In this document: positions 33,157-50,826 of the stretch, piece after piece
How positions within the stretch are numbered: the first letter of the stretch is position 1
Layout of the letters: each line of letters opens with the position of its first letter
Origin: a virus
Length of the DNA: 63,720 nucleotides
IMG/VR virus record: IMGVR_UViG_3300025132_000035
Location: 1-63,720 of that record
Direction: 5' to 3' (one strand)
Notes under the pieces: generated by a model
What the model was told of the DNA's origin: nothing
Database searches by the model: none
Seen by the model: the letters and a program-made list of their open reading frames with translations, nothing else
Translations under genes and position numbers: made by a program

Positions 33157-33996
33157 ATGTTAAACCATAAGCTATTAAAACTAGCCATAGACGTTCTTAA
33201 AGAACTTCCACAAGGGGCTGTGTATTCTACTACAAGAAAGCCACCAAAGGGGGCTAAAGTTTTTACAACTACTGGGGGTACAGAATATTGGATGCCTAGC
33301 CAACAAGATAAAAAACCTACTCCACAAAACCAAAAAAATACTAATGAAGCAATAGCTAAACTAGTACAGGAAAAAGTTAAAAGGGGTGACACTGGTGAAG
33401 GTAGAGAAGTTGAACTATCTAAAGATGAATTATCTTACGTCTTGAGTACTGGTAGTTATGCGTTGGTTTCTGGGGGTAGAAACTCAAACATCAAAGAAGA
33501 AGCAGACTTGGATGAACAAGATGAAAAGTTTGTACAACGTCACGAAGAACTTAAATCTGAATTAGTTAATTCAGGTTATGCCCACACCGAAATAACTGGA
33601 CACTATGGGGGTGAGGAGAAATCTTTCCTAGTTATGGTTCACGATCAAGATGAATCAGAAATGAAAGAACTAGGTAAAAAATATAATCAAGACTCTGTAA
33701 TTGTAGCAAATCAAGGCAAACAAAAAATGTTTTTTACCACAGGAGAAAACGAAGGATCATATTTCTCAGGTAGTGGATGGGAACAAACTCAGGATGCCAA
33801 AACAGATTACACATTATTTAAAACTTCTGATGGGACATTAATAAAGTTCTCATTAAATTTTGACTTCGATAATATGAATACTGATGAAGGCGAATCTGCA
33901 CAAATTGAAAAAGCAATCATCGAACAATTTCTACATATCATACATAGAAAACCACCAGATCAAAACTTAAAAAAAATAACGAGGGTATTAGTATAA
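33157..33996 (+). CDS. DUF3293-like head-associated protein
   Basis: 279 residues. The N-terminus (LKLAIDVLKELPQGAVY) repeats a segment of the preceding protease. Residues ~100-210 (YALVSGGRNSN ... ELVNSGYAHTEITGHYGG ... SFLVMVHD ... LGKKYNQDSVIVANQG) resemble DUF3293. Its placement after the protease suggests a protein carried in the head, possibly injected. Biochemical function unknown. Confidence 0.5.
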   Translation: MLNHKLLKLAIDVLKELPQGAVYSTTRKPPKGAKVFTTTGGTEYWMPSQQDKKPTPQNQKNTNEAIAKLVQEKVKRGDTGEGREVELSKDELSYVLSTGSYALVSGGRNSNIKEEADLDEQDEKFVQRHEELKSELVNSGYAHTEITGHYGGEEKSFLVMVHDQDESEMKELGKKYNQDSVIVANQGKQKMFFTTGENEGSYFSGSGWEQTQDAKTDYTLFKTSDGTLIKFSLNFDFDNMNTDEGESAQIEKAIIEQFLHIIHRKPPDQNLKKITRVLV

Positions 33997-45198: not shown

Positions 45199-45559
45199 AT
45201 GAGATGAACTTAAACGATCTGGCACTGCATTAGTAGAAGGATTGAATCAACTTTCTAGAGTTGAACAAGAAATTCGAAGTTTGGAATCCAATGTAACGTT
45301 AAGGGTCTAGAGTAATTGATCTTAAGGGATAGGGGTGGTTAGCACCACACCTAATAGATAAAGGACTGGCAAGTCCTCTGGATAGATCAATGAAGACTAA
45401 TTCTAGGGAAGTGGGGGTTTAAGTTTGGGGACTAGAAAACTCAAACTGATTCCCCTTCCTGACTGGAGTCTTATTTAACAAGAAGGGAGGAAATCATGCT
45501 TTGTTCATAGGACTTATTAAACAAACTTAAAAGAGCCTAAAATTTTAGGCTCTTTTTTT
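45199..45559 (+). ncRNA. Highly structured non-coding RNA, ~360 nt
   Basis: Bounded by a strong promoter and a strong terminator. Predicted elements: hairpin TCAACT/AGTTGA (45247-45264); a three-way junction closed by ATTGATCT/AGATCAAT (45315-45322 with 45384-45391) holding hairpins 45331-45352 and AGGACT/AGTCCT (45362-45377); a second domain closed by AAGACT/AGTCTT (45393-45398 with 45467-45472) with a long stem AGGGAAGTGGG/CCCCTTCCT and inner AGTTT/AAACT. Near the end a perfect ribosome-binding site (GGGAGGAAATC) precedes a four-residue frame MLCS. It matches no RNA family known to me (not tRNA, tmRNA, 6S, RNase P or group I intron). Confidence 0.7.
45531..45559. terminator. Terminator between the RNA and the Mom-like gene
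   Basis: A perfect 24-bp palindrome (AAGAGCCTAAAA / TTTTAGGCTCTT) followed by TTTTT on the plus strand; on the minus strand it lies just after the Mom-like stop and can serve both units. Confidence 0.9.
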
Positions 45560-45560
45560 A

Positions 45561-46523
45561 TTACAATAACTTTAATTGTTGTGGGGTGAGTTTGGGCAAC
45601 TTTTTTAAGTCAATTAAATTACGAGGATTTTTTAAATAGGATTCACAAAACCACTTAATTGAAGGATTAGTATGTGCCTGTTCTAACACATAATTTAAAT
45701 TACTAGGGTTAATTAATTTCAGGGCTTTATTAGCATATTCGTCATCCCCTATCAATTTATACATTACGCTTAACCTAGCCAACAAATTTTCGGAATGTGT
45801 GAACACTGTATCAGTCATACCTTTTTCATAAGGTGGGTAAGGTAATTCTGGGAGTAGTATTTCTTTCGTTTTGTTTAAACAATATATATATCTATAAGTT
45901 TTAACTTTAAATGCTCGTAATTTATTGTCTAAGTACAGACGATTCTTATTTAAAAATCCTGTTGGTCGCTTTGTATTCTCTAATGGAACTTTATGGAATA
46001 ATTCTTTACTGTTAATATCTTGCAAAAATACAGAATTAGAATGTCCATAATATTTAAAATTAGCTGCTTTATATATTGTTCCACATCCTAATCTACCATC
46101 AGCAAAAGATTGAATAGTATATATATATGGATATAACTTTTTTATAATTTTAAAAGATGCTCCTATTAGCGTGGTTTCAGCATTGTACCCTAATTCGTCA
46201 TCGATCCATAGTCTATTTAACTCTACTACATTTTCTTTATCAAAATCTGGGTTAAGTTTTTTATAACTATTTGGGTTCATTAAATTACCAAATACGGCAG
46301 CACCTAAGAGAGTACCATCTCTAAATACACCTATATTCACTAAACCAAACGAGGTGTTCCATTTATGCGAATAATGATATTTAACCATCATATTCTTTGC
46401 TGTTTGATATGGAATTTCTCGGAAGATTAAGGTGCCATTGGTTTTAGTTTCTTTAATAATTTTCAAGCTATTACCACTAACAGTTACAAGACCATTCAAA
46501 TAAGGGAGTATTCTCCCCAACAT
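45561..46523 (-). CDS. Mom-like DNA adenine modification enzyme
   Basis: 320 residues from the ATG at 46523; a TTG at 46466 is an alternative that would remove the 47-bp overlap with the upstream gene. The pattern KYHYSHKW (48-55), GAAVFG (75-79), ELNRLWIDDELG (101-112) and IQSFADGRLGCGTIYKAANF (137-156) matches the Mom family of phage Mu, a GNAT-fold enzyme that turns adenine in DNA into N6-carbamoylmethyl adenine and protects phage DNA from restriction. The C-terminal ~130 residues are an extension not present in Mu Mom. Read-out of the actual base modification is not possible here. Confidence 0.75.
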   Translation of the reverse strand: MLGRILPYLNGLVTVSGNSLKIIKETKTNGTLIFREIPYQTAKNMMVKYHYSHKWNTSFGLVNIGVFRDGTLLGAAVFGNLMNPNSYKKLNPDFDKENVVELNRLWIDDELGYNAETTLIGASFKIIKKLYPYIYTIQSFADGRLGCGTIYKAANFKYYGHSNSVFLQDINSKELFHKVPLENTKRPTGFLNKNRLYLDNKLRAFKVKTYRYIYCLNKTKEILLPELPYPPYEKGMTDTVFTHSENLLARLSVMYKLIGDDEYANKALKLINPSNLNYVLEQAHTNPSIKWFCESYLKNPRNLIDLKKLPKLTPQQLKLL

Positions 46524-46740
46524 ATGCACCCAGAGTATTAAATTCAAACCATTCCAAAGACTCTTTATCACACCAATCATTATCTTCCATAAGTTGTTGA
46601 ATGCATTTTTCACTTGAATAAAGAACCACAGGAATGTTATTTCGAAAACCTATTCCCTTAATTGCCCTATCGTACCCATCTGCAAACAATGCATCAGGGT
46701 TAATTTTTACTATGTATTTTTCAATTATCTTTCTATCCAT
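46477..46740 (-). CDS. Conserved phage protein upstream of Mom-like gene
   Basis: 87 residues; AAGGAGTAATT precedes the ATG. INPDALFADGYDRAIKGIGF, then WFEFNTLGAYVGENTPLF, follows the pattern of a small family found in many phages, function unknown. GTTTAAAC (46768-46775) lies 27 bp before the start. It overlaps the Mom-like gene. Confidence 0.65.
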   Translation of the reverse strand: MDRKIIEKYIVKINPDALFADGYDRAIKGIGFRNNIPVVLYSSEKCIQQLMEDNDWCDKESLEWFEFNTLGAYVGENTPLFEWSCNC

Positions 46741-46785
46741 AATTACTCCTTATGCATAAATAAAGACGTTTAAACACCTTTAGTG

Positions 46786-47868
46786 CTAAAATAAAGACAT
46801 TTGTTCTTTGCTTTTGGTATCTAGGGTCAAACCCCAATTCTCTAAATCTTGTTTCCATTCTGAGTTAATTTCACCAATATATTCATGAGTATAACAGATT
46901 CTTTTTGTATCAACTCTCCAATGATCAAAACCAGATTTTTTTGATAGACGTCTTGGTTTTAAGTTATGGACTGTTGGTCTCCATAAAGGACTTTTCTCTC
47001 TGTACTCTCCTAACAAAACATTAGAGGTTTTAGTAAACATTCTTTTCCCATTTTGTACATAAAGTTGGCTGATATAATGTGATAGTCTGGTACCAATTCC
47101 TAATCCTTGATATTTAGGTACTGTTACTAATCTATGTGACCTAAAAGCATTTTTAAGACTTCCTGATGGCAATGTCTGAATGGCTTGAAACCCAGCTGGT
47201 TTGCCATCAACATAGGCTTCATAACAACGTGAACTTATGTTTAAATTACCTGTTAAATAATGATGCTTTTTATAATACTCCCATCTTTGATAAGGAACTC
47301 TTTTAATATCAAATTGATAAGATAAATCTAAAGTTTGTTTTTTAAAAGAAGCAGTTTCAACATTATATATCCAGTCTGCTTTTAACCATTCTGTAATATC
47401 CTCGTGACCAGTAGCAACAACTATGTTTTTTCTTGTAATGCCTTTATTAATAGAACTACATATTGATTTCGCAGACTCTCTATCTAGGGTACTGGTAAAT
47501 TCATCTACCAAATAAATTGGCTTGTCTTTTGAAAACGTTAACGCTAGTTTAGCCCTGTATTGTTCTCCCATAGATAAAGTGTCTATTGATCTTATCCATG
47601 TGGGAACGCTGTTTAGCCCAACACTTTTAAAGTAATGAATTGCTTCCTCAGAATCAGAAAAACTTTCGCAAATAGGGTTATTGTCATATGAGTCAAGGTC
47701 TAAAACATCCCCTAAAGATTTTAATATAGTTGTTTTACCACTACCACTTGCACCAATAATGATCCCAACACCAAAGTCTTTTGGAAAAGTTGGAATAAAT
47801 ATTTTTTCCAAATAGTGATCAGATTCTGCCAAATCAAATTTTACTTTTATATCATCTACTATATTCAA
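46786..47868 (-). CDS. ABC-ATPase fused to GNAT acetyltransferase
   Basis: 360 residues; TTG start with GGGG upstream. ABC ATPase part: Walker A GASGSGKT (39-46), signature LSMGEQ (98-103), Walker B IYLVDE (118-123), His155 switch. From ~190 a GNAT domain with acetyl-CoA loop QGLGIG (254-259) and RLSHYI. No membrane segments, so it is not a transporter. Such fusions occur in phage DNA-modification neighbourhoods; placed two genes from the Mom-like enzyme it probably takes part in base hypermodification or its energy-dependent control (inference). Confidence 0.72.
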   Translation of the reverse strand: MNIVDDIKVKFDLAESDHYLEKIFIPTFPKDFGVGIIIGASGSGKTTILKSLGDVLDLDSYDNNPICESFSDSEEAIHYFKSVGLNSVPTWIRSIDTLSMGEQYRAKLALTFSKDKPIYLVDEFTSTLDRESAKSICSSINKGITRKNIVVATGHEDITEWLKADWIYNVETASFKKQTLDLSYQFDIKRVPYQRWEYYKKHHYLTGNLNISSRCYEAYVDGKPAGFQAIQTLPSGSLKNAFRSHRLVTVPKYQGLGIGTRLSHYISQLYVQNGKRMFTKTSNVLLGEYREKSPLWRPTVHNLKPRRLSKKSGFDHWRVDTKRICYTHEYIGEINSEWKQDLENWGLTLDTKSKEQMSLF

Positions 47869-47892
47869 TCTATTACCCCTATTAAAACAAAA

Positions 47893-47940
47893 GGAACCAT
47901 CATATCAGACTGTAATAAGCCCTTAATGTACAATGGTTCC
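47893..47940 (-). promoter_or_regulatory. Leader stem before the ABC-GNAT gene
   Basis: GGAACCAT and ATGGTTCC are complementary across 32 bases, in the 5' leader of the ABC-GNAT gene, with a second hairpin CCAGA/TCTGG at 48009-48027. Possible RNA-level control. Confidence 0.4.
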
Positions 47941-48082
47941 AGTTGCCATACCAAAGGAGAGAGAGTTTTTTTTGTAGCGTTGTTATTTATCTCTTTTTTC
48001 AATAAGTGCCAGACATAACATATCTGGACTTTAATAAAATAAATGTTCTCTCTCGTGCTATGGTATTACTATATCACAATAA

Positions 48083-48544
48083 TTATGAATAAACAACAGC
48101 AGAATAATCGTAATTTATACTTTGTTGGTTTATTGATAATATTTCAGCACCTAATCTTGTGTGAAACTTGTGAGCCATATCTGTTTTTGGACTCATTGTC
48201 ATAAACTTAGTAACTTCGAAATAGTTTGATTGGATGTAGTCTACTGTACTAAATAACATACGTTTGCCATAACCAGCTTTGTTTGCCCAGATCGTATAAA
48301 ATACAGCTATTGAATCTTTATCATCTGGAGAACAATTGTAGTCACGTAAATCATGTACAGTGGTTGGAATTTCTTTGCAGTAAGCAACACATACTGTTGC
48401 TAAAACCTGATCATCTTTGATAAGGGAATAAACTTCTCTGTCATCGGAAGTTCTAAATAGAGCATCAAGTTCTGGTCTAATGGGGTCATCGTGAATTCTT
48501 TGAAGGGCTAAGTGGTGGTTTCTTTCTAATAAATCCTCAGTCAT
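48083..48544 (-). CDS. GNAT-family acetyltransferase
   Basis: 153 residues; ATG at 48544 chosen because GGAGATAGAAAC precedes it. VYSLIKDDQVLATVCVAYCK and FYTIWANKAGYGKRMLFSTV fit GNAT beta strands and the acetyl-CoA loop; FHTRLGAEIL is the typical C-terminal part. Substrate unknown; a third GNAT-fold protein beside the Mom-like and ABC-GNAT genes. Confidence 0.65.
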   Translation of the reverse strand: MTEDLLERNHHLALQRIHDDPIRPELDALFRTSDDREVYSLIKDDQVLATVCVAYCKEIPTTVHDLRDYNCSPDDKDSIAVFYTIWANKAGYGKRMLFSTVDYIQSNYFEVTKFMTMSPKTDMAHKFHTRLGAEILSINQQSINYDYSAVVYS

Positions 48545-48585: not shown

Positions 48586-48789
48586 TTATTCTTCCCTTTT
48601 TTTGCCTGATCGATCAAACTGGTATTGTTTCAAATCCCAACAATCAAGGCATAACCCATTTCCTAAGATTTGTGGTTCAATGTTGCCACATCTTTTATAT
48701 TTAGCACAGATTCCATAAGATTCAGTAGGTAGCTGAACTGGGTTAAACATATAAGCATAAACAGGTTTACCCTTACGAGCAGACATCAA
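48586..48789 (-). CDS. Small zinc-ribbon protein
   Basis: 67 residues. ICAKYKRCGN ... GLCLDCWD gives four Cys. Start overlaps the preceding stop by 4 bp. In Mu, a zinc-finger protein (Com) is needed for mom translation; a similar role here is only a possibility. Confidence 0.55.
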   Translation of the reverse strand: MMSARKGKPVYAYMFNPVQLPTESYGICAKYKRCGNIEPQILGNGLCLDCWDLKQYQFDRSGKKREE

Positions 48790-48974
48790 ATTTTTAATAT
48801 TTCTAACTCATCTCTCCAGATTTCTGCATTTCTTGATTTCTGGGTTCTCAGTTCAACTCGACCCTTAAAATCAAATCTCATATTTTGTATGAGCCTTGTT
48901 ACTTTCTTTGCATCTTCTGAATCGCTAAGTTCTACTCTTATGTAATCTTTAAAAACTTCTTTTCTTAATCCCAA
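48786..48974 (-). CDS. Small hypothetical protein
   Basis: 62 residues; TTG start with AGGAGATTTTAG upstream. Charged alpha/beta. First gene after the structured leader at 48975-49138. Function unknown. Confidence 0.5.
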   Translation of the reverse strand: MGLRKEVFKDYIRVELSDSEDAKKVTRLIQNMRFDFKGRVELRTQKSRNAEIWRDELEILKI

Positions 48975-49138: not shown

Positions 49139-49166
49139 ATAATACTAAGTTTTTATTTTATGTCAA
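49139..49166 (-). promoter_or_regulatory. Sigma70-type promoter
   Basis: On the minus strand TTGACA and TATTAT are separated by 16 bp, overlapping the end of the 49158-49454 gene. Confidence 0.7.
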
Positions 49167-49454
49167 ATTTTCATCATCAGTAAATGCTTTTAAAAATACG
49201 TCAGGAATCTTGGTTGGTTCCTCTATTTCTTCAGGTTTTTTGCCTGTCATTTTTTGCCACATTGAATTGTATTGTGCTTGATGCAAAACATCACCATTAA
49301 TTGTTGTTTCAAAACGTTTCGCAATAGTTGATAACAACTCAAACATTTTTTCATCTTCAGGTAAACCCTGTTCAACAGTAATAGTAATATGTGGTAATTT
49401 GTGTTTCTTTAACGTTGTTAAAATGTATTCTCTAAAGGCATCATTAAATTTCAT
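49158..49454 (-). CDS. Hypothetical protein after NadA
   Basis: 98 residues; AGGATG upstream, overlapping the nadA stop by 4 bp. Helical, with LPHITITVEQGLPEDEKMFE. Co-transcribed with nadA; function unknown. Confidence 0.55.
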   Translation of the reverse strand: MKFNDAFREYILTTLKKHKLPHITITVEQGLPEDEKMFELLSTIAKRFETTINGDVLHQAQYNSMWQKMTGKKPEEIEEPTKIPDVFLKAFTDDENLT

Positions 49455-50644
49455 AGTACTAGCATCCTATTCAAAGCACGTTTAGCGTAATATTTAGTTT
49501 CTTCATCAACCTCTATTATATTAACAGGTTTTTTGTCATCATACATTATACTTTCTAAAACCCACAATAAATAAGCTGGATGAATCCTATACATTGTGGC
49601 ACATGGACACACCATAGAATCAAGACAAAATATTGTTTTGTCTGGGTTGGTTTTAGCTAATCTATTAACAAGATTTATTTCTGTCCCAATTGCCCAAATA
49701 GATTTTGGTTTAGAGTTATTAACCATGTTTATTATTGCCTCAGTTGAGCCAGTTCTGTCAGCTTTCATGACAACATCATTAGTACATTCAGGATGAACAA
49801 CAACTTTCACATTAGGATACTTTTGACGTGCCATTTCTATTTGTTTTGTTGTAAATCTAGTGTGAACCGAACAATGCCCTTGCCAAAGAATTACTGTGGC
49901 TTTTGTTAATTCTTCTAGTGTATGCCCACCTAAAGGTTTGTTAGGGTTCCAAACAATTATCTGGTCATCTGGAATATCCCATTTTTTAGCAACATTTCTC
50001 CCTAAGTGTTGATCTGGTAAAAAGAATATTTTGTTTCCTTTATCCATTGCCCATTTAAATGCTTTAGTTGCATTAGAACTTGTGCAAATAATCCCCTTGT
50101 TTCTACCACATAGTGCTTTGATCTCAGCAGTAGAGTTCATATATGCTACTGGAATAACATCAACCCAAGAACCAACATTGGCTAAAATATCTAACCAAGC
50201 ATCTTGAACTTTCTCAGTTGGAGCCATATCAGCCATTGAACAACCAGCTGCTAAATTAGGCAATATAACTTTTTGCCAATCATCACTAACCACATCAGCT
50301 GTTTCTGCCATAAACCTTACACCACAAAAAACGATCCATTTAGATTTTTGTATTGCTGAGTATTGAGAGAGTTTAAACGAATCCCCTGTTACATCTGCAA
50401 ATTGGATTACTTCCTCTCTTTGGTAATGATGCCCAAGAATAGTTACTGCTGTTGAAAGTTTTGCTTTTGCACTAAATATTCGTTCTTTTATTACTTGGGG
50501 ATCAAGACGTAAATATGCTTGTGGAACTTCTTGCCAGTTCACATTTATTTCAAGTTCTTCTATTAGTGGTTTTGTTACCAACTGAGATTCTTCTTGGCAG
50601 AATGCTGCCTGTTCTAACTCTGTAACAGGTATTCGAGTTACCAT
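49451..50644 (-). CDS. nadA: Quinolinate synthase NadA
   Basis: 397 residues, full family length. Iron-sulfur ligands are in place: Cys135 (AAGCSMAD), Cys258 (WQGHCSVH) and Cys346/348 (VCPCATMYRIHP). Substrate-site segments GHHYQ (71-75), FMAETADVV, and HPE (284-286) are kept. It condenses iminoaspartate with dihydroxyacetone phosphate to quinolinate in de novo NAD synthesis. No nadB or nadC is present, so it would rely on host enzymes. ATG overlaps the upstream stop (TGATG). Confidence 0.92.
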   Translation of the reverse strand: MVTRIPVTELEQAAFCQEESQLVTKPLIEELEINVNWQEVPQAYLRLDPQVIKERIFSAKAKLSTAVTILGHHYQREEVIQFADVTGDSFKLSQYSAIQKSKWIVFCGVRFMAETADVVSDDWQKVILPNLAAGCSMADMAPTEKVQDAWLDILANVGSWVDVIPVAYMNSTAEIKALCGRNKGIICTSSNATKAFKWAMDKGNKIFFLPDQHLGRNVAKKWDIPDDQIIVWNPNKPLGGHTLEELTKATVILWQGHCSVHTRFTTKQIEMARQKYPNVKVVVHPECTNDVVMKADRTGSTEAIINMVNNSKPKSIWAIGTEINLVNRLAKTNPDKTIFCLDSMVCPCATMYRIHPAYLLWVLESIMYDDKKPVNIIEVDEETKYYAKRALNRMLVL

Positions 50645-50826
50645 CAATAATCCTTTAGTGATTTCGAAAGTTTGTTAGTGAAGTGTGCCTGTGTTAATGA
50701 TGCTGCTGTTTGAACCCTAAGATCGGTACCATACACATCAATGCCTTTTTCTGAAACTACCTGAGACACAACATCGTAATAATGTTTAAACGTTTCTTTA
50801 ACTTCATCGTATTCTTCAGTAACCAT
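50644..50826 (-). CDS. Small hypothetical protein before nadA
   Basis: 60 residues from the ATG at 50826 (AAGGAGAGAATT upstream); an in-frame extension to 50889 lacks support. Acidic helical with ETFKHYYDVVSQVVSEKGI. Translationally coupled to nadA. Confidence 0.6.
   Translation of the reverse strand: MVTEEYDEVKETFKHYYDVVSQVVSEKGIDVYGTDLRVQTAASLTQAHFTNKLSKSLKDY

Follow-up and report, generated by a model that had tools for sequence, protein, structure and literature searches.

A viral contig of 63,720 bases (IMG/VR record IMGVR_UViG_3300025132_000035, analysed as one stretch and termed the window) carries a gene resembling mom of phage Mu close to a gene in which an ABC ATPase is fused to a GNAT domain, raising the question of whether the two products cooperate in building one elaborate DNA base or act on DNA separately. 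The window comprises the whole record and also encodes a DNA polymerase, DnaB-like helicase, RecA, ribonucleotide reductase, terminase, portal, and head genes. A first-pass annotation had favored a single cassette, in which Mom, the ABC-GNAT fusion, and a further small GNAT protein would together make a more complex base. The best explanation, at a probability of roughly 0.6, is instead that two independent DNA base-acylating modules stand side by side and are used by a tailed phage against restriction enzymes.

The genes of interest occupy a minus-strand block (48974 to 45561) in the order 62-aa ORF, 67-aa possible zinc protein, small GNAT-like protein, ABC-GNAT, 87-aa ORF, and Mom (Table 1). 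The operon-like character first ascribed to this block was borne out, its neighbouring genes being separated by −3 to 215 bases, with a single good promoter-like candidate upstream and a terminator-like hairpin at its end. Outside the block, at 49451–50647 on the minus strand, is a homologue of quinolinate synthase NadA (TIGR00550, over cut-off) in which three iron-sulphur cysteine motifs (FCGV, HPEC, CPC) are present by eye. No nadB or nadC was recognised near it and only nine phage records match; the protein possibly serves NAD repletion during infection.

Table 1. Coordinates, strand, and supporting evidence for the features of the block in the window.
Feature	Coordinates	Strand	Evidence and remarks
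Bidirectional terminator-like hairpin	45529..45556		Directly 3' of mom
Mom family DNA base (adenine-N6) acyl/carbamoyl transferase (predicted)	45561..46466	-	PF25680, 8bv8; 301 aa, TTG start
87-aa ORF between abc-gnat and mom	46477..46740	-	phrog_13182; AAGGAG ribosome site
ABC ATPase-GNAT fusion, 360 aa, clade II of family (phrog_11143)	46786..47868	-	Profiles, AlphaFold2, tree
GNAT domain, residues 178-340	46849..47337	-	Family-specific HHYL motif and R-x-V-x-x-P-x-x-Q-G-x-G-x-G CoA loop
ABC ATPase domain, residues 1-172	47353..47868	-	GxSGSGKT, LSxGEQxR, VDEFTSxxDR, H155 intact; Foldseek
Small GNAT-fold protein, 153 aa, MCD-C-terminal-like	48083..48544	-	ATG with AGGAG site; link to Mom doubtful
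67-aa protein, possible zinc-binding	48586..48789	-	C-x5-C and C-x2-C; no family match; not Com
62-aa ORF	48786..48974	-	First gene after promoter-like site; without convincing family
Sigma-70-like promoter match	49139..49166	-	TTGACA-16-TATTAT, head of block; consensus match only

By its sequence, the protein encoded at the end of the block is a true member of the Mom family, with a match far beyond chance to the Mom profile (PF25680; E = 3.7e-55, 187 bits against a cut-off of 27.1, profile positions 2–201 of 202). It is also matched by phrog_1384, ‘Mom-like DNA modification protein’ (E = 1e-46), and by the solved Mu Mom (PDB 8bv8; E = 2e-25), to which it is related across the whole catalytic domain, with HYS kept and the ELNR.W, QSFAD, and Y.A.NF blocks in alignment. 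The identity that had been proposed from the motif set is thereby confirmed, and an HMM search, named at the outset as a check that could place the protein outside the Mom/GNAT family, puts it inside. The reading frame is open to 46613, and the most likely start is the TTG at 46466, because homologues begin there and the upstream frame belongs to the 87-aa ORF; the product is therefore about 301 aa long, not the roughly 320 residues first estimated. These homologues, from phages Lactococcus PMBT69, Aeromonas PX29, and Enterococcus vB_EfaS_159, are 49–54% identical and start at the residue matching this TTG. An extra C-terminal region does exist past the Mom domain, though it spans ~90 aa instead of the ~130 originally noted and, as it is common to all three relatives, is a trait of the subfamily and not a private addition. 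Mom very probably places a Mom-type acyl or carbamoyl group on the N6 of adenine in the phage DNA.

Compared to Mu Mom, the window protein differs in the ~90 residues after the Mom domain, in having no com gene, and in adjoining an ABC-GNAT gene. Com is a translational activator of mom (PMC6483171), and small zinc-ribbon proteins had been reported in the block with the window Mom. Only one nearby small protein, of 67 aa, has a zinc-binding look, and it was rejected as Com, having no match in Pfam, including to PF10122 (Com). No other Com was found for the window Mom. Most sampled Mom loci likewise lack Com, the control of mom by Com being known from Mu and not universal. The 87-aa ORF belongs to phrog_13182, elsewhere a common protein of Bacillus SPO1-like phages and not Mom-specific, and is probably a bystander; the 67-aa protein and the small GNAT are probably passengers as well.

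The small GNAT was correctly recognised in the initial annotation as a further GNAT-like enzyme, though the similarity is only at the level of the GNAT fold, to the C-terminal domain of malonyl-CoA decarboxylase (E = 4e-6). It shares G.GK and SP.T.MA..FH.R.GA motifs with a protein of Pelagibacter phage Mosig, and relatives occur in at least 498 other viral stretches, commonly in marine phages without Mom or ABC-GNAT. Among 80 loci surveyed, a small GNAT stands beside Mom in three, which look like one lineage, and beside ABC-GNAT in none except the window; its membership in a Mom cassette is not supported, as repeated adjacency to Mom or ABC-GNAT was not observed. The three Mom-adjacent cases (L263:618-1869, L267, and L262) are marine contigs with Mom followed by the small GNAT family, and the two genes overlap in L263 and L267.

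The ABC-GNAT fusion itself was verified. phrog_11143 matches residues 3–336 (E = 3e-86), Pfam matches include ABC_tran, Acetyltransf_7, and Acetyltransf_1, and the Walker A, signature, Walker B, H-loop, and R.V..P..QG.G.G motifs are kept across alignments of 11 and 61 relatives. The AlphaFold2 model, a structure prediction that had been recommended, is confident (pLDDT 87.4; GNAT domain 89), and in Foldseek searches of the PDB the ABC domain finds ABC folds and the GNAT domain finds GNATs (E = 1e-7 to 1e-5). Judged by its motifs, the protein is an intact ABC ATPase joined to an intact GNAT. A sequence search matched 79 phage records, the weakest of which align to the ABC part only; single-sequence scans of IMG/VR with either ABC-GNAT or the small GNAT gave no matches, and relatives came from alignment queries. 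In some phages the ABC and GNAT halves are separate adjacent genes, which supports the two as a functional unit. In Enterococcus phage 9184 (L004; 5926–9442) these two genes seem to interrupt the DNA polymerase gene toward its 3' end, so that a polymerase tail is fused behind the GNAT. In two further loci (L051:9381-9914 and L049:9457-9999) the gene directly before ABC-GNAT resembles a small NPPY-motif methyltransferase, overlapping ABC-GNAT by 4 bases in L051, where it has no Pfam match.

The conservation of the fusion or of the two-gene pair also bears on the suggestion that the ABC part derives from a transporter or defence ATPase and that its fusion to a GNAT is incidental. Many phage records do annotate these proteins as ABC or siderophore transporters, and PADLOC gives a weak match of the ABC signature region to mad3, but no permease family was conspicuous among the genes that recur around ABC-GNAT and the 25 NCBIfam matches listed were all below cut-off, with transporter matches far below curated cut-offs. 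This origin is highly improbable. The idea that Mom is particularly close to the GNAT domain of ABC-GNAT was also rejected (hhalign probability, 0.5%), and 8bv8 was not among the 50 best structural matches of that domain. The HY motif common to both proteins is suggestive only, and the ABC-GNAT of Pmp13 gave one weak match to the Mom profile, below cut-off.

ABC ATPase-coupled GNATs have been predicted by the Aravind group to be a DNA acylation system, with Tenacibaculum phage pT24 named as a carrier (PMC7824862). The window protein belongs to the same family, and pT24 is among its closest relatives (38.7% identity). Because DNA-base acylation has already been predicted for it, the family is not new.

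A neighbourhood survey of Mom homologs, as had been advised, covered IMG/VR loci with flanks of at most 10 kb, 80 of them for ABC-GNAT and 80 for Mom, and explored whether the two genes travel together. Adjacency to the fusion does recur, but besides the window Mom meets ABC-GNAT only in L051 and L099, ~1 kb apart; the two are farther apart in Aeromonas PX29 and in G003/L042. On the scale of whole records, Mom occurs in 3/50 ABC-GNAT records (PX29, G003, and G010) and ABC-GNAT in 2/50 Mom records, both PX29, though many records are fragments and absence of either gene from them is therefore weak evidence. Control records carrying the small GNAT have Mom in 2/48, a small set picked through a neighbour of the window's Mom that may overstate the background. 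The pairing is thus rare and not clearly above background (3/50 vs 2/48), and the single cassette first proposed is not borne out.

These counts weigh on the possibility of a sequential pathway, in which either Mom or ABC-GNAT acylates adenine and its counterpart then uses ATP to lengthen or replace the added group, giving a larger hypermodified base. The two genes are adjacent and co-directional in the window, and the pairing recurs in L051, L099, PX29, and G003/L042, with all five cases of co-occurrence in one ABC-GNAT clade, here clade II, which leaves room for functional pairing there. Most members of that clade, however, lack Mom within 10 kb, the whole-record frequency is close to that of the control, and in Mu-like phages ABC-GNAT replaces mom and does not join it. 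Action in sequence is accordingly judged quite unlikely. The distribution suggests that Mom and ABC-GNAT each act alone, normally replacing one another.

The replacement is clearest in Porphyromonas gingivalis phages 008a and 012a, which have flanks 81–88% identical and a right end (last 93 bases) 82% identical; a small ORF, ABC-GNAT, and a formyltransferase (L009:5433-7442) occur in one exactly where the other phage holds Mom (L010:5857-6737). An apparent second swap between Enterococcus loci L003, with Mom after the DNA polymerase, and L004 was rejected by alignment, the ABC-GNAT of L004 lying within the 3' part of the polymerase and so near the Mom slot of L003 but not in it. In Pseudomonas phage Komp_PAO1_1, Com (PF10122; E = 8e-21) precedes a small ORF and then ABC-GNAT. 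Across 80 genome loci of the Mu-like subclade, Com is upstream in 50, the small ORF is present in 74, and a formyltransferase is downstream in 65, fractions that describe that subclade only, since the sample was built from Mu-like seeds and contains some nearly identical loci. A separate sample of 755 gamma- and alphaproteobacterial genomes, drawn for Com without reference to ABC-GNAT, showed Com over cut-off to be rare (3/369 and 5/386 genomes). At the six new com loci the next gene was a D12 adenine methyltransferase (n = 3), a C5 cytosine methyltransferase (n = 1), Mom (n = 1), or ABC-GNAT with a formyltransferase (n = 1). All six thus lead into a DNA-modification gene or ABC-GNAT, in a sample that is small but was not chosen by outcome. 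ABC-GNAT of clade I stands behind com as mom does in the com-mom operon of Mu and as methyltransferases do at other com loci, whereas the window has no Com. The occupation of mom's regulated place in Mu-like phages argues for ABC-GNAT as an alternative to Mom and not its helper. The Formyl_trans_N protein that lies directly downstream of ABC-GNAT in 65 of these 80 Mu-like loci (L279–L358; an example is L033:8942-9559) may formylate the base or the donor; a formyltransferase was looked for in the window and not found. Full-text searches returned no paper describing the link between com and ABC-GNAT. The present analysis describes the com slot, the mom swap, the link to a formyltransferase, and the ParB-type partner, though the 2013 source survey may already note some of them.

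In other phages ABC-GNAT comes after a gene of the ParB_N family, and profile comparison shows homology between the small ORF of Mu-like phages and the very C-terminal end of these ParB-like proteins, with E values as low as 2e-9. A tree of 107 ABC-GNAT members divided the family in two, with a ParB-type C-terminal domain upstream in 48/50 members of clade I and 0/57 of clade II; the tree was midpoint-rooted with root support of 0.78 and 0.95, modest values that suffice for describing two clades but not for placing events in time. A ParB partner was sought in the window and rejected, none being found, and the absence of such a domain directly upstream places the window ABC-GNAT in clade II and not clade I. 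As clade II has neither Com nor the ParB-type partner (0/57), the evidence from clade I context transfers to the window protein only through family homology (26–34% identity).

The same context bears on whether ABC-GNAT targets something other than DNA, such as host RNA polymerase, tRNA, or a toxin, and lies near DNA-modification genes only as a moron. GNAT substrates are many, the structures matched best are acetyltransferases that act on proteins and small molecules, one phage GNAT, Rac, is cited in PMC7824862 as acetylating RNA polymerase, and there is a weak profile match to the RNA cytidine acetyltransferase NAT10 (E = 0.018), which is too weak to use as a GNAT-specific link. Set against these are a Com-controlled slot that otherwise holds DNA methyltransferases or Mom, the clean swap with mom, and the ParB-type upstream partner, and a target other than DNA is considered unlikely. 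TmcA/NAT10 itself combines a P-loop ATPase with a GNAT whose target for acetylation is the amine of a nucleobase. Its likeness to ABC-GNAT is one of concept, with the weak profile match and no shared membership, and it differs in having a RecD-like helicase ATPase in place of an ABC and in acting on RNA instead of DNA. From gene context, namely the com-linked slot, the mom swaps, and the ParB-type partner, ABC-GNAT too very probably modifies DNA.

In the favored arrangement of two independent modules, Mom would acylate the N6 of adenine in the phage DNA, and the ABC-GNAT would work separately. By analogy with other DNA-binding ABC ATPases, an ABC dimer may clamp on DNA, and ATP binding and hydrolysis by the dimer could present a base to the GNAT domain, which would then move a group, conjectured to be acyl, from CoA onto the base. 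The ParB-type domain of clade I may load or aim the enzyme. For clade II, it is conceivable though rather improbable that ABC-GNAT, having no such partner, is guided by Mom-modified DNA or by Mom itself, adding or extending an acyl group in an ATP-dependent step to give a two-step hypermodified adenine unlike any known. Elsewhere in the window (33157–33996, plus strand), a predicted protein of 279 aa ends in an S-adenosylmethionine lyase domain (PF23780; E = 4.5e-12), preceded by an extra N-terminal part; enzymes of this type are known to counter restriction. With Mom, ABC-GNAT, and this predicted lyase, the phage appears to have several independent routes round restriction.

The Aravind-group prediction rests on inference, and the finding of ABC-GNAT in mom's Com-controlled slot, together with the clean swap, makes it directly testable. 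Some carriers infect cultured bacteria, including Komp_PAO1_1 on Pseudomonas aeruginosa PAO1, with com, ABC-GNAT, and a formyltransferase, and PX29 on Aeromonas salmonicida, with Mom plus ABC-GNAT. Overall, the results suggest a second, ATP-driven class of acylated DNA across Mu-like prophages of many bacterial phyla, associated with a ParB-type partner domain and often with a formyltransferase.
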